Part shown: positions 7,916 to 26,653 of the stretch, in pieces
How the letters are laid out: the number at the start of each line of letters is the position of its first letter
Position numbering within the stretch: position 1 is the first letter of the stretch
DNA from: Azoarcus sp. DN11
GTDB lineage: Bacteria; Pseudomonadota; Gammaproteobacteria; Burkholderiales; Rhodocyclaceae
Length of the DNA stretch: 64,000 nucleotides
Assembly: GCF_003628555.1 (NCBI RefSeq)
Contig: NZ_CP021731.1
Location: 2,728,001-2,792,000, forward strand
Reading direction: 5' to 3'
Translations under genes and position numbers: made by a program
Notes under the pieces: model-generated
Database searches by the model: none
What the model saw: only the letters and a program-made list of their open reading frames with translations
What the model was told of the DNA's origin: nothing

Positions 7916-8854
7916 TCATCGTCCGCTCAGGAAGTCGCGCACCAGTGCGATCTGCGCACTGTCCATCAGCACGGGGGCGTGACCGACGCCCGGGATCTCT
8001 TCGAGTCGCGCGCGCGGGCCGGTTTCGCCCATCTGGCGGAAGATCTCCGGTGCCAGCAGGTCGGATTCGGCGCCCCGGATGACCATCGTGGGGCAGCGGA
8101 TCGCCTTGTAGACATCCCACAGATCGACATCGACGGCCACGGGGGCTTCCCGGAAGACGTCCCCGAGTCCCGGGTCGTACACCATCGCGAAGCCGCCCTC
8201 CACCGGACGGACCGAGTAGCGGGTCAGGTGCAGCCACTGCTCGTCGGTGAGCGGCCCGAAGGGGGCGCTGACCACGCGGATCCAGGCCTCGGCGTCCGCC
8301 ATGCTGGAGAATTTGGGCGCCTTCCCGACATATTCCCCGATGCGCTTCAGTGAAACCGCGGTGATCACCGGACCGACGTCGTTAAGGACGAGCCGCGAAA
8401 TGGGTGTGTGGGGCTTGTTTGCAATCAGCATGCCGATGATCCCGCCCATCGACGTGCCGACCCAATGCACCGTCTCGACATCGAGGCGTGCCAGCAGCGT
8501 GACCATGTCGGCGACGTACACGGGAAACCCGTAGTCGGACTTCACGCCCAGCCAGTCGCTGCGCCCGCGCCCGACCACGTCCGGGCAGACGATCCGGTAG
8601 TCGTCGGCGAGTGCCTGCGCGAGAAAGTCGAAATCGCGCCCGTTGCGGGTCAGGCCGTGGGCGCACACGAGCACCTTCCGGCTCGCCGGATCGCCCCATT
8701 CCGTATAGGCCATGCGGTGGAAGCCGTGCGGGCCGACGCATTGCACGGATTTCTCGCGGACACCATGCCACGGACGCTCGAGTGCGACGTCGGCGGTCGG
8801 CGACGAATACGGTTCCGGTGGCAACAGACGGCGCAGGGAGTCGAGCAGGCTCAT
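7916..8854 (-). CDS. Alpha/beta-fold hydrolase
   Basis: 312 residues with a complete alpha/beta hydrolase core: the oxyanion segment CAHGLTRNGRDFD, the nucleophile elbow GTSMGG (serine), an acid in the VIRGAESDLLAPE strand and the late histidine in IPGVGHAPVLMD. The substrate is unknown. The frame runs upstream to 9421 through the antisense of comEC; ATG 8854 gives a normal N-terminus (MSLLDSLRRLLPPEP) 52 bp past the comEC stop. Similar proteins are often annotated generically, so only the fold is secure. Confidence 0.85.
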   Translation of the reverse strand: MSLLDSLRRLLPPEPYSSPTADVALERPWHGVREKSVQCVGPHGFHRMAYTEWGDPASRKVLVCAHGLTRNGRDFDFLAQALADDYRIVCPDVVGRGRSDWLGVKSDYGFPVYVADMVTLLARLDVETVHWVGTSMGGIIGMLIANKPHTPISRLVLNDVGPVITAVSLKRIGEYVGKAPKFSSMADAEAWIRVVSAPFGPLTDEQWLHLTRYSVRPVEGGFAMVYDPGLGDVFREAPVAVDVDLWDVYKAIRCPTMVIRGAESDLLAPEIFRQMGETGPRARLEEIPGVGHAPVLMDSAQIALVRDFLSGR

Positions 8855-8906
8855 GGCATGTAGGTCTGGCAGGCAGCGGATTGGCGAAGTGTAACAGGAC
8901 GACGGG

Positions 8907-11279
8907 CTAGTGCCCGTACCAGTACCGCGGTGCCAGCTCGCGCTGGCCGGCGATCTCGACATCGCGCGCGCCAACATCGACCCGGACCGCGCCCTGCCCG
9001 TCCGTGCGCCAGTTCGTCGCCCCGCTGTCGCTCCAGCGCTGCAGCACCGACGGATGCGGATGATGGAACTGGTTGAGATACCCCGCCGAATGGATGGCGG
9101 CGCGCGGCGACACGGCCGCGACGAAGGCCTCGCCCGACGACGACTTGCTGCCGTGGTGGGGAACAACGACCACGGTGCTGGCGAGCGCGGGGCCTTCGCG
9201 ATCGACCAGTTGCTGCTCTGCGGCACGCTCGATGTCGCCCGCGAGCAGCGCCGAACCACCCGGCGCCGCGACGCGCAGCACGCAGGAGGCGTCGTTGTCC
9301 GAGGTCCTGCCAAGCTCCTCGGAGCGCGGATGCAGGACACGGAACTCGACACCGTCCCACACCCACGCCCCGCCGGCCGTGCAAGGCCGCACGAGCGGCC
9401 TTTCCTTCCCGTCCTCCGCACCGCCTTCCAGTGCGAAATTGGCGGCGATGTCGCCCACGCCGGTGCCCGCGAGCACGGACGACAGGCCCCCCGAATGGTC
9501 GAGGTCGTTGTGCGACACGACCAGCCGGTCGAGGCGAGCGATGCCCGCCGCCTGCAGGTAGGGGACGACGACGCGCGCCCCCGCGTCGCTGCCCTGCCGG
9601 TAGGCCGGGCCGGTATCGTAGACCAGTTCGTGCCGGGCAGTCTGCACGTGCACGGCGGTGCCCTGCCCGACGTCGAGCACCGTCATCCGGAACGTGCCCG
9701 GAGCCGGACGTTCGGGCACCCACGCAAGCATCGGCAGGATCGCCAGCACGCCCGCGGAGCGGGCGGGCGTTCCCCGCGGCAACATCAGCCACACGACGCC
9801 CGCGATCGCGGCGCCGGCGAGCGTCGCCGGTGGCGCAGCCTGCGACCACATCGCGAAAGGCAAGGCGGCAAGCCACTCCAGGAACACCATGAGGAGGCCG
9901 AAAAGCCCGTGCGCCAGATCGAGCAGTCCGGTCAAGGGTAGGACGATGGCGAGCAGCGTCAGCGGCGTGATCACGAAGCTCACCAGCGGAATCGCCAGCG
10001 CATTGGCCAACGGCGACACCAGGGAGAAGCCGTTGAACAGCACGATCAGCGCCGGGATGGTCGCGAGCGTGATGCCGAGCTGACTACCCACCGCGGCGCG
10101 CCAGCCCTTGGCGGCAGCCACCCGCCCGCCGAGCAGGAACATCAGGATCGCGACCGCGCCGAAAGACAGCCAGAAACCGGCCGCCAGGACCGCCCACGGA
10201 TCGAACGCGAGCACGCACACCAGCGCAAGGCACAGGACCTGGCTCCCCGACGGCTGGCGCCCGCCGAGCAGCGCAAGCGCGACCACGGCAAGCATGATCA
10301 GCGAGCGCTGCGTCGGGATTCCCATGCCCGCCAGGATCGCATAGGCGGCCGCCGCAACCAGTCCGGCTGCGGCGGCCGCCTTCATCGCGGGAAGGCGCAG
10401 CATGCGCCGGGACGACCGCCGCCACGCCTTGCCGACCAGCCATGCGACGAGGATTCCGACCATCGAGACATGCAATCCGGAGATGCTTATAAGATGACTG
10501 ATCCCGGTATTGCGGAACACCGTCCATTGCGCGTCGGGAATCGCACGCTGGTCGCCTACCGCCAGCGCGATCAGGACGCCTGCGTACTCCTTGCCCGGCA
10601 GCGCAGCCGAGAAGCGGTCACGGATCGCGTCGCGAAGGCGATGGACGAGAATCATCGGCCGGGGAACGAAGCGCTCCAGCAGCGCCGGCGGCGGCCCGGT
10701 GCGGACGCTCCCGGTCGCACGCACCCCGCGCTCCAGCAAGGCGGCTTCGTAATCGTAGCCGTTCGGATTCACCAGTCCGTGCGGTTTCTTGAGCCGCACG
10801 GTGAAGCGCCACCGCTCACCCGGCCGTACAACGGGCGGTGATGCCGAACTCTTGCCACGCTCCTTGCCGTACCACGACAGCAGAACGCGCTGCGGCACGG
10901 GGCCTGCCGCCTCCTCCACCTGAAACACGAACCGGACGCCCTGCTCGGAGGGTTCGGGCAACTCCGCCACAAGTCCGGTGACTGCGATGTCGCGCCCCTC
11001 CCACTCCCGCGGAAGCTCGTCCGCGATCCGCCACGTCGCGCGCCACTCCGACCACGCAAACCCGACGCCTAGCGCCACCAGCAGCACGAGGGCACGAAAC
11101 AGGTTTTCGCGCTGCACACCCGATCTGTACCAGTGCAACAGTGCGGCACCGCCGATGACCAAACCGGCCGTAAGCAGGATCTGCGCCGTGCCGGAAAGTA
11201 ATCGAGGCTGGTATTGGGCGATCCAGATACCGGCGGCGAACGCGATAATTGCCATTTGCATAGACCGGATCATGCACAT
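8907..11279 (-). CDS. comEC: DNA internalization competence protein ComEC/Rec2
   Basis: 790 residues. ComEC forms the inner-membrane channel through which single-stranded DNA enters during natural transformation. An N-terminal membrane segment and a soluble OB-like region (about 80-230) precede the multi-spanning competence domain, with the marker GISHLISISGLHVSMVGI near residue 265. A C-terminal metallo-beta-lactamase domain (from about 530) carries VLDVGQGTAVHV, VVSHNDLDHSGG and VVVPHHGSKSSS. Four in-frame ATG codons lie within the first nine codons (11279 to 11255), none with a clear ribosome-binding site, so the exact start is uncertain. No other competence genes are nearby. Confidence 0.93.
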   Translation of the reverse strand: MCMIRSMQMAIIAFAAGIWIAQYQPRLLSGTAQILLTAGLVIGGAALLHWYRSGVQRENLFRALVLLVALGVGFAWSEWRATWRIADELPREWEGRDIAVTGLVAELPEPSEQGVRFVFQVEEAAGPVPQRVLLSWYGKERGKSSASPPVVRPGERWRFTVRLKKPHGLVNPNGYDYEAALLERGVRATGSVRTGPPPALLERFVPRPMILVHRLRDAIRDRFSAALPGKEYAGVLIALAVGDQRAIPDAQWTVFRNTGISHLISISGLHVSMVGILVAWLVGKAWRRSSRRMLRLPAMKAAAAAGLVAAAAYAILAGMGIPTQRSLIMLAVVALALLGGRQPSGSQVLCLALVCVLAFDPWAVLAAGFWLSFGAVAILMFLLGGRVAAAKGWRAAVGSQLGITLATIPALIVLFNGFSLVSPLANALAIPLVSFVITPLTLLAIVLPLTGLLDLAHGLFGLLMVFLEWLAALPFAMWSQAAPPATLAGAAIAGVVWLMLPRGTPARSAGVLAILPMLAWVPERPAPGTFRMTVLDVGQGTAVHVQTARHELVYDTGPAYRQGSDAGARVVVPYLQAAGIARLDRLVVSHNDLDHSGGLSSVLAGTGVGDIAANFALEGGAEDGKERPLVRPCTAGGAWVWDGVEFRVLHPRSEELGRTSDNDASCVLRVAAPGGSALLAGDIERAAEQQLVDREGPALASTVVVVPHHGSKSSSGEAFVAAVSPRAAIHSAGYLNQFHHPHPSVLQRWSDSGATNWRTDGQGAVRVDVGARDVEIAGQRELAPRYWYGH

Positions 11280-11370
11280 GGCACGCTACGCGGGCAAGTA
11301 CCACCTATGACGGCTGCACCTGGAAAGGCGGTCGCTTACGCCGCAGCGCCGACTCCCGGGTGCGCTCCGC

Positions 11371-12049
<679 letters not shown>

Positions 12050-20194: not shown

Positions 20195-21299
20195 ATGGAA
20201 GCCGAACGCCTCAACGCCATCGCCCAGAAACTCGACGACCTGCAGGCCCGCGGTCGCGAACTTCGGAGGTATCTTTGACTACGACGAGAAAGCGTCGAAG
20301 CTCGAAGAAGTAACCCGCGCACTGGAAGATCCGGCAGTCTGGAACAATGCCGAAAAGGCGCAGGAGCTAGGCAAGGAAAAGCGCCAGCTCGAGGACATCG
20401 TCGTCAATCTGCGCGACATCGAGCAGATGTCCATCGACCTGAAGGACCTGTTCGAACTGGCCCAGGCCGAGGATGACGAGGACACCCTCACTGCGGTCGA
20501 GGACGATCTCGCGCCGCTGGAGGCCAAGGTCCACACGCTCGAATTCCGCCGGATGTTCTCCAATCCGATGGACCCGAACCCCTGCTTCATCGAAATCCAG
20601 GCCGGCGCCGGCGGCACCGAGGCCCAGGACTGGGCCGGCATGCTCGAGCGCATGTACCTGCGCTACTGCGAGCGCAAGGGCTTCAACGTCGAGGTGATGG
20701 AAGAGTCCGAAGGCGAAGTGGCCGGCATCAAGGGCGCGACGATCAAGGTCAGCGGCGACTACGCCTATGGCTTCCTGCGCACCGAATCCGGCATCCATCG
20801 CCTCGTGCGCAAGAGTCCGTTCGACTCCAACGCGCGGCGCCACACCAGCTTTTCGTCGGTGTTCGTGTATCCCGAAGTGGACGACTCGATCGAGATCGAC
20901 ATCAACCCCGCCGATCTGCGCATCGACACCTACCGTGCGTCGGGTGCGGGCGGCCAGCACATCAACAAGACGGACTCCGCGGTGCGCATCACGCACGAGC
21001 CGACCGGCGTCGTCGTGCAGTGCCAGAACGACCGCTCGCAGCACAAGAACAAGGCCGAGGCCATGTCGATGCTGAAGGCCCGCCTGTATGAACTGGAACT
21101 GCGCAAGCGCCAGGCCGAACAGCAGAAGCTCGAGGACTCGAAGAGCGACATCGGCTGGGGTCACCAGATCCGCTCGTACGTGCTGGACCAGTCGCGCATC
21201 AAGGACCTGCGCACCAATCACGAAGTCGGCAACACGCAGGCCGTGCTCGACGGCGACCTCGACGACTTCATCGCGGCGAGCCTCAAGCAGGGCGTGTAA
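20195..21299 (+). CDS. prfB: Peptide chain release factor 2 (programmed +1 frameshift)
   Basis: RF2 recognises UAA and UGA stop codons. Translation begins at ATG 20195 ([18 protein letters not shown]) and reaches an in-frame UGA at 20276 after 27 codons. A +1 shift at CTT-T then continues as [12 protein letters not shown] to 21299, giving 367 residues. The downstream part has the stop-recognition tripeptide SPF (VRKSPFDSN) and the peptidyl-tRNA hydrolysis motif GGQ ([15 protein letters not shown]). A -10-like TATACT lies at 20157-20162 and GGAG at 20184-20187. The coordinates span both frames; it is not a pseudogene. The stop codon lies 22 bp before the condensin operon. Confidence 0.96.
20265..20279 (+). 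other. RF2 programmed frameshift site
   Basis: The internal Shine-Dalgarno GGAGG (20265-20269) is followed by TAT CTT TGA C, which is the canonical autoregulatory slip site. The TGA at 20276-20278 is read by RF2 itself: low RF2 favours the +1 shift at CTT. Confidence 0.95.
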
Positions 21300-21321: not shown

Positions 21322-22629
21322 ATGACGCCCGACCTCGCCGATTTCCTCGCACCCGGCGTCGCCGCGGACGACGTGCCCGAACTGGGCGCGCTCGCCGCGG
21401 CACGCCCGCTGATCGACGCCTTCATCACGCTGTTCCGCGGCTCCGAGGCGGAAGTGCTGCTGCGCCTGCTGGTGCTGCGCGAGATCGGCCAGGAATCGGA
21501 GGCGCCGCGCTGGTCCCCGGACGCGCTGCGTGCGCGCTTCACGTTCCTGGATCCGGTGAAGCTGGAGACGGTGCTCAAGCGCCTGCGCGACAACGCCCTC
21601 CTCGCCTACGCGGACGACGGCCAGTACCACCTTTCCGACCTCGGCCGCAACGCCGTCGCCGCGATCGCGATGCTGCTGCGCTTCTCGGCCGAGGAGGACG
21701 CCGAACTGGGATTCCTTACTGCGCAGCTCGCGGGCCTGCAGGCAGTCGGCGGCGTTACGCCGGATGCGCTGGGACACCTGCTGTCCAAGCTCAACGACCT
21801 CACCTGGCACTTCGAAGAGGCCATCGCGTCCGGCTCCGAGTTCCGGATCCTCGGCGCACGCCGGCGGCTTTCCGCGAACGGGCGCTGGCTCGCGCGCGGT
21901 ACCGAGATCCTGAAGAGCCTGCTGGCCGATCCGGAGGTCGACTTCGACATCGCCCGCATTGCACAGCGCATCGGCCTCGCACAATCCAAGCTGGCACGCG
22001 TGGATGCGGGCTTCCAACGCGCGCTGAACAAGATCGAGGCCCAGCGCGTCACGCTGGGAGCGTCGGGGATCTCTTCCTCGGACGTCGCGGCCTGGCTGCG
22101 CGGGCTCGATGCCACCTCCTTCGCGGCTTTCGCCGAAGGCGCCCTTTTCATGGTGCCCGAGCTGCCGCTTCTCGCCGGCGGGCACGAGCTCATCGACCGT
22201 GCGGAAGGCGTGCTTTCCGACGAAGTCCGTGCCCGCGAAACCGATACCGAACTGCCGCCTCCCGATGCGGCGGAGGTAAACGCCGCGCCTGAGCAGGACG
22301 ATCTCGCCCTGCTCGAGCACTTTGCCCGGCGCCTGGACACCCTGCCTGGCTCCGCTCCCCTGCACACGGTGGTGGCCGGCGGCGGCTTTGCCCCTGCCTC
22401 TTACCGGCTGTCGCTGCTGGCACTGCTTGCCGACGGCGGGTCGGCCGGCCCGGCCGACGGTCCGATAGGCGAATTCATGCGCCTGCCCGTCGATATCCAC
22501 TTCGGCGACGCGCTCGTACCGGTCGGCGAAGACGAGATCGCCGCCATGTCCGAGGGCAGGGTGATCCCCCGCCCGACCTCCTCCGCATCGGCGGGACCCA
22601 TGAACGCGCGCCCCCTCATCGACGCCTGA
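21322..22629 (+). CDS. Condensin kleisin-like subunit (MksF/JetA-type)
   Basis: 435 residues, first of a three-gene coupled operon. The N-terminal ~100 residues look like a winged-helix domain (LLRLLVLREIGQE, then a segment LETVLKRLRDNALLAY followed by DDGQYHLSDLGRNAV), and the centre is strongly helical (about 105-250). This layout and its place before a MukE-like and an SMC-like gene fit MksF/JetA, the kleisin-type bridge that binds the ATPase heads. Sequence similarity alone is weak by eye, so the call rests mainly on gene order. The start ATG is 22 bp after prfB with no obvious ribosome-binding site. The stop overlaps the next start (TGATG). Confidence 0.65.
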   Translation: MTPDLADFLAPGVAADDVPELGALAAARPLIDAFITLFRGSEAEVLLRLLVLREIGQESEAPRWSPDALRARFTFLDPVKLETVLKRLRDNALLAYADDGQYHLSDLGRNAVAAIAMLLRFSAEEDAELGFLTAQLAGLQAVGGVTPDALGHLLSKLNDLTWHFEEAIASGSEFRILGARRRLSANGRWLARGTEILKSLLADPEVDFDIARIAQRIGLAQSKLARVDAGFQRALNKIEAQRVTLGASGISSSDVAAWLRGLDATSFAAFAEGALFMVPELPLLAGGHELIDRAEGVLSDEVRARETDTELPPPDAAEVNAAPEQDDLALLEHFARRLDTLPGSAPLHTVVAGGGFAPASYRLSLLALLADGGSAGPADGPIGEFMRLPVDIHFGDALVPVGEDEIAAMSEGRVIPRPTSSASAGPMNARPLIDA

Positions 22630-23336
22630 TGGAACACGAACTCAAGACCCTCACCGCGCGCCTGCTCGCCCATCGCTGGCTGCCGCGCAACGACCGGCAG
22701 GTGCGCCGCGCACTGGTCGACGAGACCTTCCGCGTGGAACTCGATCACCGCCTCGCCGCCATCGGCCTGCAACTCCAGGACAACCCCTACGCGGACCACG
22801 TCGCGGCCGTCCTCACGCCCGAGATGTTCGAGCCGGTGTTCGGCGCCCGGCGCGAATACGCGGCGAGCAACGTGGGCCTCACGCGCGACGAGATCGCACT
22901 GCTGATCGTCATCTGGTCGCTCATCATCCTGCCCAAGCGCGAGCGTCAAGTGACCCGGCGCGAACTGGCTGACGACGGCCAGGGCGACATGTTCGGCGCG
23001 GACAAGCCGGTCGCGCACGGCGCGGCGGTTTCCGGGGGACTTTCCGAAGCCTCCCTCATCGCCGACTTCGGCCCGCTGCTGGGGGGCAAGACCAAGGTCA
23101 AGAACTTCATGCTCGGCAAGCTCGCCCGCCTGGGCTTCATCGAACGGCGCAGTGGCGTGCTCCACGAAGGGCCCCTGCTCGACGTCGCGCTCGACTATCG
23201 CGTGCTTGCCGACCGCATCATCCACGGGACGCTCGCAGACGTGCTCAAGAACGCGGGGCATGCCGTTCCCGACACCAACGCCTTCGAGGACGCCGAGGTC
23301 CTGTCCGACGCGGGCGACGGGGAGGAGGACGCCTGA
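22629..23336 (+). CDS. Condensin accessory subunit (MksE/JetB-like, DUF4194-type)
   Basis: 235 residues, with one-base TGATG overlaps at both ends, so its translation is coupled to both partners. It opens with a helical part (about 1-60) and then a probable tandem winged-helix region, including GLTRDEIALLIVIWSLIILP and FMLGKLARLGFIERRSG. The tail is acidic (DAEVLSDAGDGEEDA). MukE/MksE/JetB proteins of about this size bind the kleisin and help form the DNA clamp. The assignment is from size, fold pattern and position between the kleisin-like and SMC-like genes. Confidence 0.68.
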   Translation: MEHELKTLTARLLAHRWLPRNDRQVRRALVDETFRVELDHRLAAIGLQLQDNPYADHVAAVLTPEMFEPVFGARREYAASNVGLTRDEIALLIVIWSLIILPKRERQVTRRELADDGQGDMFGADKPVAHGAAVSGGLSEASLIADFGPLLGGKTKVKNFMLGKLARLGFIERRSGVLHEGPLLDVALDYRVLADRIIHGTLADVLKNAGHAVPDTNAFEDAEVLSDAGDGEEDA

Positions 23337-26128
23337 TGTTCCACATCAAGCAATTGGAACTCGTCCATTGGGACTACTGGCGCCGGTTCACGCTGCCGCT
23401 GGATGCGCAGATCATCACCATCGTCGGCCCCAACGGTTCGGGCAAGACGACGCTGCTCGACGCCCTGCGCACGCTTTTCGCGCTGCGCTGCTCGGGCAAG
23501 CGTGATTTCCGCCGTTACGTGCGCCGTGCCGAACGCAGCTTCGCGTGGATCCGGGCCGTCGTCGCCAACCAGCCGGGTTCGACCGGCCGCCGCCCCTTCT
23601 TCCCTTGCCTGCACGACGAGGTCACGCTGGCTTGCCGCATCCGCCGTGCCGGCGGCGAATGGACGCGCGACTACACCATCATCGACGGCGATCAGCCGAT
23701 CGAGGTGCTGGAACAGTCGGAGGACTGGGTCGGCCTGCGCGACTACCAGAACCGGCTTGCGTGGGGCGGGCTCACCCCCGCGATCGCCAAGGTGCTTGCG
23801 CTCGAGCAGGGCGACACCGACAAGCTGTGCGAATATTCGCCGCGCGCGCTGCTCGAGCTCGTGTTCGACGTCTTCGGCGACAAGGAAGTGCTCGACAACT
23901 ACCAGGCCGCGCGCGAGGAACAGAAAAGCGCGGAGCGCGAGCTCGCCGATCTCGGCCTGGATCTCGACCGCCTGCGCACGCAGGCCGAGGGGCGGCGCCT
24001 CGAAGCCGACAACTACCTGCAGTGGAAGCAGCTCGCCGACGAGACTCACGCGCTCGAAGCCGAGATCGTCCCGCGCCTGGAGGCGGCGGAACTCGCGCGC
24101 GAGGTCGCTACCGAGCGCAACGAGTTCGTCCGCCAGCGCGGCGAATACACGCTCAGGCAGGCTGAGCGCCGCGCCGCCCGCCAGCGTCTGGACGAAGTCC
24201 AGGCCGAAAAGTCCGAGGCGGAAGCCCGCCGCAACGCGCTTCGCGCCGAACACGACGCCGCCGGGGCGATCCACCTGCAAGCGCACGATACGGTGCGCGA
24301 TTTCGAGAAGCTCGTCGCCGAACGTGACAACCTGCGCACCCAGCTCGCCGCCGAGCACGGAGCAGACGCAGTCGCGCTGGAGGCGGAGCACGAAGCGGCC
24401 GAAGCGCGCCTGCGCGACCTGAAAGCGCGGGAGCGCGCCCTCGTCGCCGAATTCGAGGACAAGACCACTTCGCTGCGCAACGCCAGGAGCCGCTCGGGGC
24501 CGCCGTCCGATCCGGAAGTCGCCCGCTTCCGCGCACTGCTCGACGCCGACGGCATCGGCCACTGTGGTCTTGCCGAAATCGTCGAGGTCACGGACGCCGC
24601 GTGGCAGGCCGCGCTCGAAGCGGTGCTGCGCCCCTATCGCCACGTGATCCTGCTCGACCGCGAATCGGACCGCCATGCCGCGTGGGCGCTCGGCGAGCGC
24701 GAGCACTTCCGCCACTTCGTGGTACCCGAGCGCGAGGAGGCCCCGCCGGCGGTCGCCCGGAGCCTGGCCGAAGTCGTGCGCTTCTCGGCGCCGGTCCCGC
24801 GCTGGCTCACAGACCTGCTCAACCGCATCCGGCGCGTCGACAGCGTCGCCGCCGCTCGCGACCTACCACGCGAGATCGAATGGATCACGCGCGACGGCTA
24901 CCACCGCGAGCGCCGCGGCGCCCGCCACCTGGGCCGGCCCGCCGAATTCCATTTCGGCGAACTCGCCCGCCAGGCACGCATTGCGCAACTCGACGGCGAC
25001 ATCGCCGGGCTCGATCGGCAGCTCCAGCACTTGCGCCCTCAAGTCGCCCGGGCAGGCGACGAACTCACCACGCTGCGCCAGCGCCTGCTGGGCCTGCAAT
25101 CCGCACAGCTGCTGGCAGCACGGGCCGAAAGCTACGCCGAGGCCGAGACCGCGCTGCCCGCTGCCCGTGCCGCGCTCACCGCGGCGATCTCCCGATGTGC
25201 CGAGGCGCAGGGGGCGCTCGACGAACTCGCAGGCCGCATCAATGGTGTCGTGATCGAAATCGACCGCCGAAACCGCGAACTGCGCGCCTGCGACGCCCGC
25301 ATCACCGAACTCGAAACCGGCGCCGCGCCACGCCGTCACGTCCAGGCACAGCGCATGCAGCGCCTGCGAGCCCTGCGTCGCGGCATGCCGGCACACTGGC
25401 GCGATCCGGCCGAGATCGCGCTGCTCACCGACCGCTACGAAAACGCCGCGGCGGCCAGGCGTGAGCGCGACCGCCTGCGTGCGCGACTCGACGAAGGCGA
25501 CTGGGTAAAGGATCCCACCGTCATCACCCTGTCGGAACGCCTCAAGGCCGATGTTACCCAGCGCGAACGCGACTACGTCGAGCGACAGGGCTACTGCGCG
25601 ACCGCGCGCCGACTCACCGAGGAGGCGCGCAGCGCCTATATCGCCAAGCTCCGCGCCACGGTCCGGCAGTACGCCAGGAATCTCAAGGCACTCGGCGAAC
25701 TCGCCGGCGTCGGCGTGGACTGCCCCACCCCGGCGTTGGGCGACGACGATCTCTCGCTCAGCCAGGCCGGGCTCGAAGTCCGTTTCGACTTCGACCGCAA
25801 GGGCGCCGTCGGCCTCAACGATGGCGAAGCATCCGGCGGCCAGCAGGTCATGAAATCGCTGATCCTGCTCATCGCGCTGCTGATGGACGACGCGCGCCCC
25901 GGAGGCTTCGTCTTCATCGACGAACCCTTCGCCCACCTCGACGTCGCCAACATCGACCGCGTCGGCACCTTCCTGCGCGCCACCCGCGCGCAGTATCTCA
26001 TCACCACGCCCGTCACCCACAACGCGAACGTCTTCGCACCGGCCCAGCTGACACTCGTCACGCGCAAGAAGAAGCCGGGCGAAGAGTGGGCGCCAACCAT
26101 TGGCGTGCTGGCGCGCGCGATTGGCTAA
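23336..26128 (+). CDS. SMC-like condensin ATPase (MksB/JetC-type)
   Basis: 930 residues, shorter than canonical SMC (about 1,150-1,200) and MukB (about 1,490), as expected of MksB/JetC. The N-terminal head has Walker A GPNGSGKTT (31-39). Two long Arg/Glu/Ala-rich coiled coils (about 190-385 and 535-760) flank a hinge-like region (about 395-535, with CGLAEIVEVTDAAWQAALE and RHVILLDRESDRHAAW). The C-terminal head has the signature ASGGQQ (near 832-837) and Walker B FVFIDEPFAHLD (from about 858). It would extrude or clamp DNA loops using ATP. No nuclease gene follows: the next gene is on the other strand and encodes a secreted protein. Confidence 0.85.
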   Translation: MFHIKQLELVHWDYWRRFTLPLDAQIITIVGPNGSGKTTLLDALRTLFALRCSGKRDFRRYVRRAERSFAWIRAVVANQPGSTGRRPFFPCLHDEVTLACRIRRAGGEWTRDYTIIDGDQPIEVLEQSEDWVGLRDYQNRLAWGGLTPAIAKVLALEQGDTDKLCEYSPRALLELVFDVFGDKEVLDNYQAAREEQKSAERELADLGLDLDRLRTQAEGRRLEADNYLQWKQLADETHALEAEIVPRLEAAELAREVATERNEFVRQRGEYTLRQAERRAARQRLDEVQAEKSEAEARRNALRAEHDAAGAIHLQAHDTVRDFEKLVAERDNLRTQLAAEHGADAVALEAEHEAAEARLRDLKARERALVAEFEDKTTSLRNARSRSGPPSDPEVARFRALLDADGIGHCGLAEIVEVTDAAWQAALEAVLRPYRHVILLDRESDRHAAWALGEREHFRHFVVPEREEAPPAVARSLAEVVRFSAPVPRWLTDLLNRIRRVDSVAAARDLPREIEWITRDGYHRERRGARHLGRPAEFHFGELARQARIAQLDGDIAGLDRQLQHLRPQVARAGDELTTLRQRLLGLQSAQLLAARAESYAEAETALPAARAALTAAISRCAEAQGALDELAGRINGVVIEIDRRNRELRACDARITELETGAAPRRHVQAQRMQRLRALRRGMPAHWRDPAEIALLTDRYENAAAARRERDRLRARLDEGDWVKDPTVITLSERLKADVTQRERDYVERQGYCATARRLTEEARSAYIAKLRATVRQYARNLKALGELAGVGVDCPTPALGDDDLSLSQAGLEVRFDFDRKGAVGLNDGEASGGQQVMKSLILLIALLMDDARPGGFVFIDEPFAHLDVANIDRVGTFLRATRAQYLITTPVTHNANVFAPAQLTLVTRKKKPGEEWAPTIGVLARAIG

Positions 26129-26167
26129 AAACCCGGAATGAACACCGTCATGGAGTGAATGCAGCGT

Positions 26168-26602
26168 TCAGTTGCGCGCAGGATCATCCAACGCGTCCAT
26201 GGTCAGGGCAACCTCTGACGGTGCGTCGAGGAACAGGACGCTGCACATCTGTTTCGCGCCGCACATCACGGCTTCCGCCAGCTCGCGCACAAAGCTGCGG
26301 TCGCTCGATTCGGTGAAGAGCGGAATCGCGATTGTTTGTCCGGCAAGCTTTTCCGGCTCCGCCAGGATGGCATGCACGATTTCCGGCAAGGGACGACGAC
26401 CGCGCGGGACGACGCCGGGCTCGACGGCGGCAGAAGACGACGCAGCGCCGGCCGGGCTCGTTGCGATGTCGCTCGCGAGGCGACAGTGCATCTGCGTACC
26501 CCGGAGATACCAACAGATCCAGGTAGGCTCTTCCGGGGATGCCGTTTGCGCGCTCGCGCCGGTCCCGGTGAATGCCAGGAGCAAGCTGCAGATCAGCCGC
26601 AT
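26168..26602 (-). CDS. Secreted hypothetical protein
   Basis: I do not recognise this protein. From ATG 26602 it has a clean signal peptide (MRLICSLLLAFTGTGASAQ), giving 144 residues; the frame also allows a start at 26653 with 17 extra residues. The mature part has four cysteines (two in WICWYLRGTQMHCRL, two in VMCGAKQMCSV), which suggests periplasmic disulfides. Its end is hydrophilic and there is no second membrane segment. It converges with the condensin operon and is probably unrelated to it. No clear ribosome-binding site precedes either start. Confidence 0.55.
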   Translation of the reverse strand: MRLICSLLLAFTGTGASAQTASPEEPTWICWYLRGTQMHCRLASDIATSPAGAASSSAAVEPGVVPRGRRPLPEIVHAILAEPEKLAGQTIAIPLFTESSDRSFVRELAEAVMCGAKQMCSVLFLDAPSEVALTMDALDDPARN

Positions 26603-26653
26603 TGCCGACCAGGAGCGGATTTTCGCGGATAGCAGCAGGAATTCGGGTTTCAT

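Follow-up and report, generated by a model that had tools for sequence, protein, structure and literature searches.

A divergent Wadjet-group SMC operon in Azoarcus sp. DN11 with probable loss of its JetD-like nuclease

Background

What becomes of a Wadjet-like DNA motor that has no nuclease at its side? The question is raised by a 64,000-nucleotide stretch of the Azoarcus sp. DN11 chromosome (NZ_CP021731.1, positions 2,728,001 to 2,792,000), hereafter the window, in which three coupled genes, here called mksF, mksE and mksB, encode a tentative kleisin, a predicted KITE subunit and an SMC ATPase. An earlier reading of the sequence alone (the sequence-only reading) had labelled this operon MksFEB/JetABC and left three options: a chromosome-organising condensin, a Wadjet system that had lost its nuclease, or a variant served by a nuclease encoded elsewhere. 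We conclude that the operon probably encodes the motor core (SMC ATPase, kleisin and KITE) of a diverged member of the Wadjet group, and that the fourth gene of this system, coding for a JetD-like Toprim nuclease (hereafter D), was lost in this lineage.

Statements ascribed below to papers by PMC number refer to part of each paper's text. In the Wadjet model, finished extrusion of a small DNA circle triggers JetD, which is a Toprim protein (PMC10586767). MksBEF, and likely MukBEF, have been proposed to stem from Wadjet-like defence, loss of JetD being the route proposed for Pseudomonas aeruginosa MksBEF (PMC10586767), and several Wadjet-group members without MksG/JetD are known (PMC7617805). 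The operon family described here may figure among the operons tabulated in the supplementary data of the latter paper. Nuclease-less members as such are therefore already published, and what is newer is that one locus should have lost the nuclease repeatedly; within the open-access library searched, no paper reports this by title or abstract start.

Results and discussion

The operon probably encodes an SMC motor of the Wadjet group

The operon and the site behind it are organised as follows (relatives are designated by L for loci and G for genomes).

21322..22629, plus strand: mksF-like gene, 435 aa; open reading frame with predicted winged-helix-like N-terminal part, helical bundle, 40-residue helix and beta-containing C-terminal part; kleisin tentative
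22629..23336, plus strand: mksE-like gene, 235 aa; open reading frame, predicted KITE subunit
23336..26128, plus strand: mksB-like gene, 930 aa; open reading frame, SMC ATPase with intact Walker A, signature and Walker B
26129..26170, no strand: site of the JetD-like gene of some relatives, empty in the window

Both junctions, mksF/mksE and mksE/mksB, are TGATG overlaps; coordinates, sizes and coupling are as claimed in the sequence-only reading. Directly 3' of mksB there is no fourth co-directional gene. The co-directional kleisin-KITE-SMC order is that of the Wadjet group core. Of 80 relatives fetched, 71 repeat this order with each of the genes complete, four of them with an insert of 0.7-1.1 kb between mksE and mksB, and such conservation places the operon far beyond chance. 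In eight of the other nine relatives a contig end truncates the locus, and the ninth, L017, has mksB alone.

MksB displays GPNGSGKTT (residues 31-39), EASGGQQ (831-837) and FVFIDEP (858-864), so that the Walker A, signature and Walker B noticed before are all intact. The corresponding columns are invariant in a 35-row alignment, P32 excepted (alignments A1-A3 comprise 34-35 rows, window included, from 73-77 loci). MksB matches Pfam SMC_N (E 3e-16) and, chiefly over coiled coil and hinge, PADLOC JetC1 (E 3e-27). Its profile retrieves JetC (8dk2, E 3e-7) as the top match in the PDB, and HHalign against the type I JetC family of its own genome gives 98.3% over the hinge region; JetC of that genome is 1149 aa long, MksB 930 aa.

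MksF and MksE are less easily placed. Neither matches any Pfam or NCBIfam family at E 1, neither has a good match among the DUF3375, DUF4194, JetA and JetB models (the best sequence-model match of MksE is PADLOC JetB1, E 0.018), and their profile searches against the PDB gave chance-level matches only. Structures were therefore predicted with AlphaFold2 and compared by Foldseek. The MksE model (mean predicted local distance difference test, pLDDT, 70.0; predicted template modelling score, pTM, 0.57) retrieves KITE-type complexes as its first six matches, namely JetABC (8as8 and 8dk1), MAGE-G1/NSE1 (5hvq), Nse1-Nse3-Nse4 (7dg2) and MukE-MukF (3rpu), the best at E 4.8e-3 and probability 1.00, none at E 0.001. 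It is thus reasonably taken as a KITE subunit with a JetB/MukE-like fold. For MksF (mean pLDDT 77.6, pTM 0.45) the top PDB match is the MukF chain of 9gm7 (E 3.4e-3, probability 0.95, TM 0.20; none at E 0.001), with numerous helix-turn-helix regulators scoring close behind. A MukF-like kleisin is tentatively suggested. The MksFEB/JetABC label consequently stands as regards gene order, E by fold and B by similarity, and lacks backing from sequence models of Muk, Mks or Jet proteins for F and E. Taken together, MksFEB is a Wadjet-group SMC motor, diverged enough that present models of F and E miss it.

A JetD-like nuclease adjoins the operon in a minority of relatives

We wondered if a nuclease accompanies mksB in other genomes. 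Searches with type I JetD (tblastn) and with PF09983 detected none beside mksB, as expected of a plain condensin whose nuclease was never adjacent. This possibility was rejected when open reading frames of L111, whose genus belongs to a different order of the class, revealed a JetD-like gene overlapping the mksB end. Whole or nearly whole genes for D lie behind mksB in 14 of 77 loci (that of L015 has an in-frame stop), and D is cut or broken in three further ones (L019, L020, L041). Full-length copies are adjacent in Zoogloea, Nitrosospira, Pseudothauera rhizosphaerae and others.

The motifs ENRxxFE and CDPDPAG of D align with ENETNF and DIDTHG of type I JetD. Because JetD is a Toprim protein, we take these to be Toprim motifs. 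In all four D proteins tested, PADLOC JetD1 models give best E values of 1e-10 to 1e-12 and Pfam JetD_C detects nothing; with DUF2399, two of the four give a match, the one slightly above and the other slightly below cut-off. The D alignment (A4) comprises 14 proteins, several with start chosen inside the open reading frame.

The D profile was run over whole genomes in the family sample and in the window's genome, and over mksB flanks in the window's genus. Comparison across related genomes, as envisaged in the sequence-only reading, revealed a patchy distribution. In the family, mksB is present in 42 of 150 genomes and D in nine, always within 1 kb of mksB (Fisher p 5e-6). In the order, the respective numbers are 31 and 8 of 200 genomes, seven of the eight D genes being located beside mksB. 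Three of six family-sample genera with D also contain a genome with mksB and no D. All eight genomes of the L111 genus have mksB and two have D behind it (most of the others were seen for 1.5 kb downstream only). Within the window's genus, mksB is present in 12 of 17 genomes, and its flanks there show no intact D and one remnant. As for the window itself, the D profile has no match in the 4 kb downstream of mksB nor in any window frame. An adjacent JetD homologue in close relatives, which the sequence-only reading had itself named as the mark of a degraded Wadjet, is thus present, together with a remnant in a genus-mate. Among the three options, these findings support nuclease loss from a Wadjet.

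A replacement effector was also considered and rejected: in ten nuclease-less loci, co-directional genes behind mksB, inspected by eye over the first 400 residues, differ between genera (for example MutS-like, transporter, surface proteins; GGDEF by Pfam in L018). None of these genes is matched by the D profile.

Absence of the nuclease looks like loss

To describe gain or loss of D, its presence was mapped on a tree of 84 MksB sequences, 83 of them labelled (one had too little flank) and 21 with D. The tree includes 84 of 117 full-length MksB, eight duplicates and 25 of 35 Oxalobacteraceae being omitted and 22 partial MksB excluded beforehand; some rows may be the same species under two handles. 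At least 12 state changes are needed when copies cut by a contig end (L019, L041) or broken (L015, L020) are scored as present, and the starred branches force nine. With the two broken copies scored absent, ten changes remain.

Distances of D and MksB are correlated (Mantel r 0.83, n=18, 0 of 2000 permutations as high), which is expected if both proteins travelled together. In Zoogloea, empty sites are apparent: sequence found 3' of D in L022 and L025 stands directly behind mksB in L018 and L021. Decay is visible in L020, a member of the window's genus, where D profile positions 43-116 and 376-404 remain in two frames and the catalytic part is gone, and in L015, where an in-frame TAG lies inside D. 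Scans reaching as far as 4 kb downstream of mksB in 59 nuclease-less sequences, window included, gave no further remnant (one match at E 0.44). On account of co-divergence, empty sites and visible decay, absence of D looks like loss rather than gain.

The motor is under constraint

If the nuclease was lost, is the motor merely decaying? Between the window and L003-L006, L008, L009 and L020, the ratio of nonsynonymous to synonymous substitution rates (dN/dS) is 0.08-0.16 for F, 0.10-0.15 for E and 0.07-0.15 for B. These low values indicate that the motor is maintained by purifying selection without the nuclease.

The operon adjoins prfB and coexists with other SMC systems

Two genes border the operon.

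20196..21299, plus strand: prfB, release factor 2 (Pfam PCRF E 6e-60, RF-1 E 2e-44)
26168-26653, minus strand: convergent 161-aa open reading frame with hydrophobic signal-like start (by eye)

Identity of prfB, proposed earlier, is confirmed by both Pfam domains. It shares the strand with mksF, from which it is separated by 22 bp, and precedes the operon in most Rhodocyclaceae loci with upstream DNA available, nuclease-bearing and nuclease-less alike. The downstream gene is convergent as described before; its secreted nature is suggested by the start judged by eye, and no Pfam match was found at E 0.001.

The chromosome is a single contig of 4.96 Mb, and closest named relatives are Aromatoleum spp. 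(MksB 84-93%). It also codes for a canonical SMC (1037 bits), hence MksFEB is an additional SMC system. Moreover, a complete type I Wadjet (DUF3375, DUF4194, SMC, JetD) is located about 83 kb downstream of the operon, outside the window. The earlier remark that JetD is missing thus applies to the operon and not to the genome, and a genome without JetD was rejected as an explanation. The type I operon belongs to a defence island (L002:2609-18145, about 2828.6-2844.1 kb) with ZorA3/ZorB3-like genes, an AbiEi/AbiEii-like pair, an SNF2 helicase adjoining jetD and type I JetABCD.

Plasmid carriage of the mksFEB operon was considered and rejected, there being no more than two partial MksB-like matches, on Variovorax megaplasmids NZ_LR594690.1 and NZ_LR594663.1 (40-41% identity, covering roughly half the query).

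Comparison with known systems

Wadjet (JetABCD, MksFEBG or EptABCD) is similar in kleisin-KITE-SMC order, in MksB being nearest to JetC in PDB and PADLOC, in the JetB-like fold of MksE and in the linked JetD-like nuclease of some relatives. It differs in that the window operon lacks a nuclease, F and E are poorly matched by DUF3375, DUF4194, JetA and JetB, and D is missed by Pfam JetD_C. A nuclease within the operon, as expected of Wadjet types I-III, is not found in the window.

P. aeruginosa MksBEF likewise has three subunits and no nuclease and coexists with SMC (PMC7485682). Traits of Pseudomonas-type MksBEF, i.e. three genes, no nuclease and a separate SMC in the genome, are all present here. 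Since type I Wadjet structures were obtained from P. aeruginosa PA14 (PMC10586767), MksBEF and type I Wadjet coexist in that species too. On the other hand, Pfam MksE (PF21980) misses window MksE. A family regarded as Pseudomonas-like on the strength of one RsmY match (P. aeruginosa possibly not included) gave no full-length MksB match in 198 genomes; partial hinge/coil matches occur in 18 of these genomes, in open frames of 1056-1304 aa. Membership in the same subfamily as P. aeruginosa MksBEF is thus without support, and because these genomes have no full-length MksB relative, the operon is not classed as Pseudomonas-type MksBEF.

MukBEF shares the SMC/kleisin/KITE design and the lack of nuclease, and MukF is the best fold match of MksF. 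Unlike MukBEF, MksB is below cut-off against Pfam MukB (E 0.003), and no MukE or MukF sequence match exists. From canonical Smc (Smc-ScpAB), MksB differs in scoring 114 bits against an SMC_prok_B cut-off of 567.

What the motor might do

By homology to JetABC and MukBEF (PMC10586767, PMC10512200, PMC7617805), the MksFEB complex would load on DNA and its heads would engage with ATP. Like both these systems, it would then extrude DNA loops using ATP. Without a JetD-like partner, DNA would be compacted or tethered and circular DNA would no longer be cut. That the motor was kept intact suggests a present role in DNA handling that involves no cutting. Its present role is most likely that of an accessory chromosome condensin beside canonical SMC, and non-cutting compaction or silencing of plasmids ranks second. 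The condensin is preferred because the operon adjoins prfB, not a defence island.

Could the operon instead still act against plasmids, cutting being done in trans by JetD of the type I Wadjet or by some other nuclease? In favour are the complete type I JetABCD encoded 83 kb away on the same chromosome and the presence of type I JetD in nine of the 33 mksB genomes that lack D, as against none of the nine with D. Nevertheless, the two groups do not differ significantly (Fisher p 0.17), and a strong full JetD match is seen in just five of the 33, the other four matches being short and weak. Across the family sample, type I JetD (PF09983) occurs in 9 of 42 genomes with mksB and 16 of 108 without (p 0.34). 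Such independence argues against general dependence on JetD in trans, and by sequence MksF and MksE do not resemble the proteins that JetD is paired with in type I Wadjet. Since D was not found in the window's genome either (scores were obtained for 12 of the 29 candidates of a first look, so that a strongly diverged D could escape) and type I JetD is unassociated with the operon, the option of a nuclease encoded elsewhere is weakened, and we regard it as unlikely.

Alternatively, an ancestral condensin of the MksBEF kind may have gained a linked nuclease several times, giving rise to Wadjet-like systems. Most copies do lack D (33 of the 42 genomes with mksB in the family sample), and the midpoint root of the MksB tree falls on the Oxalobacteraceae branch, all 11 rows of which are nuclease-less. 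This scenario is at odds with co-divergence of D and MksB across 18 taxa, with D occupying one and the same position 3' of mksB in different families and with the existence of broken copies. It would require repeated insertion at one site of related nucleases, each matching its host MksB, which is less simple, and we consider it improbable. That the operon is a non-functional relic on its way out might be read from 5 of 17 genus genomes without mksB, from MksB being split in G049 and from L017, in which mksB has no F and E nearby. Given intact window frames, conserved ATPase motifs and dN/dS of 0.07-0.16 against near relatives, a relic is very improbable.

Several observations weigh against derivation of the operon from a Wadjet by nuclease loss. 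HHalign shows no sequence link of MksF and MksE to type I JetA and JetB (0.1% and 3%), and the kleisin call for MksF depends on a weak fold match. Because the HHalign comparison of D with type I JetD is weak as well (1.8%, E 0.027), identity of D rests on its motifs, PADLOC models and linkage. Parsimony counts are without direction, they decrease to eight changes without L020 and L015 (broken), L019 (cut) and L134 (divergent), and both the nuclease-less majority and the position of the midpoint root mentioned above speak against loss. For L134, gain of D is possible, as its D shares no more than 32-37% identity with the others. Finally, absence of mksB from 5 of 17 genomes of the genus is unlike an essential condensin, and constraint looks looser in Zoogloea, four pairs of which have dN/dS of 0.08-0.26 (highest in L031/L032).

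Notwithstanding these points, nuclease loss from a Wadjet-group operon remains our preferred explanation. Chances are about even that the locus records something broader: a Wadjet repeatedly and recently disarmed at one conserved place with its motor kept under selection, i.e. a parallel conversion of defence to condensin (or plasmid silencer) caught within genera. The locus provides closely related armed and disarmed versions, in Zoogloea and other genera, that are directly comparable. Moderately interesting alone, the operon gains in interest as part of a natural series of such versions. The JetD-like nuclease can escape the current Pfam JetD model, and its kleisin and KITE partners escape Pfam, NCBIfam and PADLOC. 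Surveys calling operons "nuclease-less" therefore need a wider profile.

Further observations at related loci

In G701 (L134/L162), a JetD-like gene 0.2 kb behind mksB shares only 32-37% identity with the other D genes; it may have been acquired independently or have evolved fast. In L017 (Pseudothauera nasutitermitis, mksB at 8001-10790), no match to mksF or mksE occurs within 8 kb on either side. Additional genes are found inside some operons. PIN-domain genes lie between mksE and mksB in L010 (3794-4422) and L015 (7399-7803), and an Asp/Glu racemase gene takes this position in L023 (2198-2932). Between mksB and the nuclease, L015 contains nucleotidyltransferase and HepT-like genes (10857-11494), and a nucleotidyltransferase gene (10909-11157) separates mksB from the nuclease remnant in L020.

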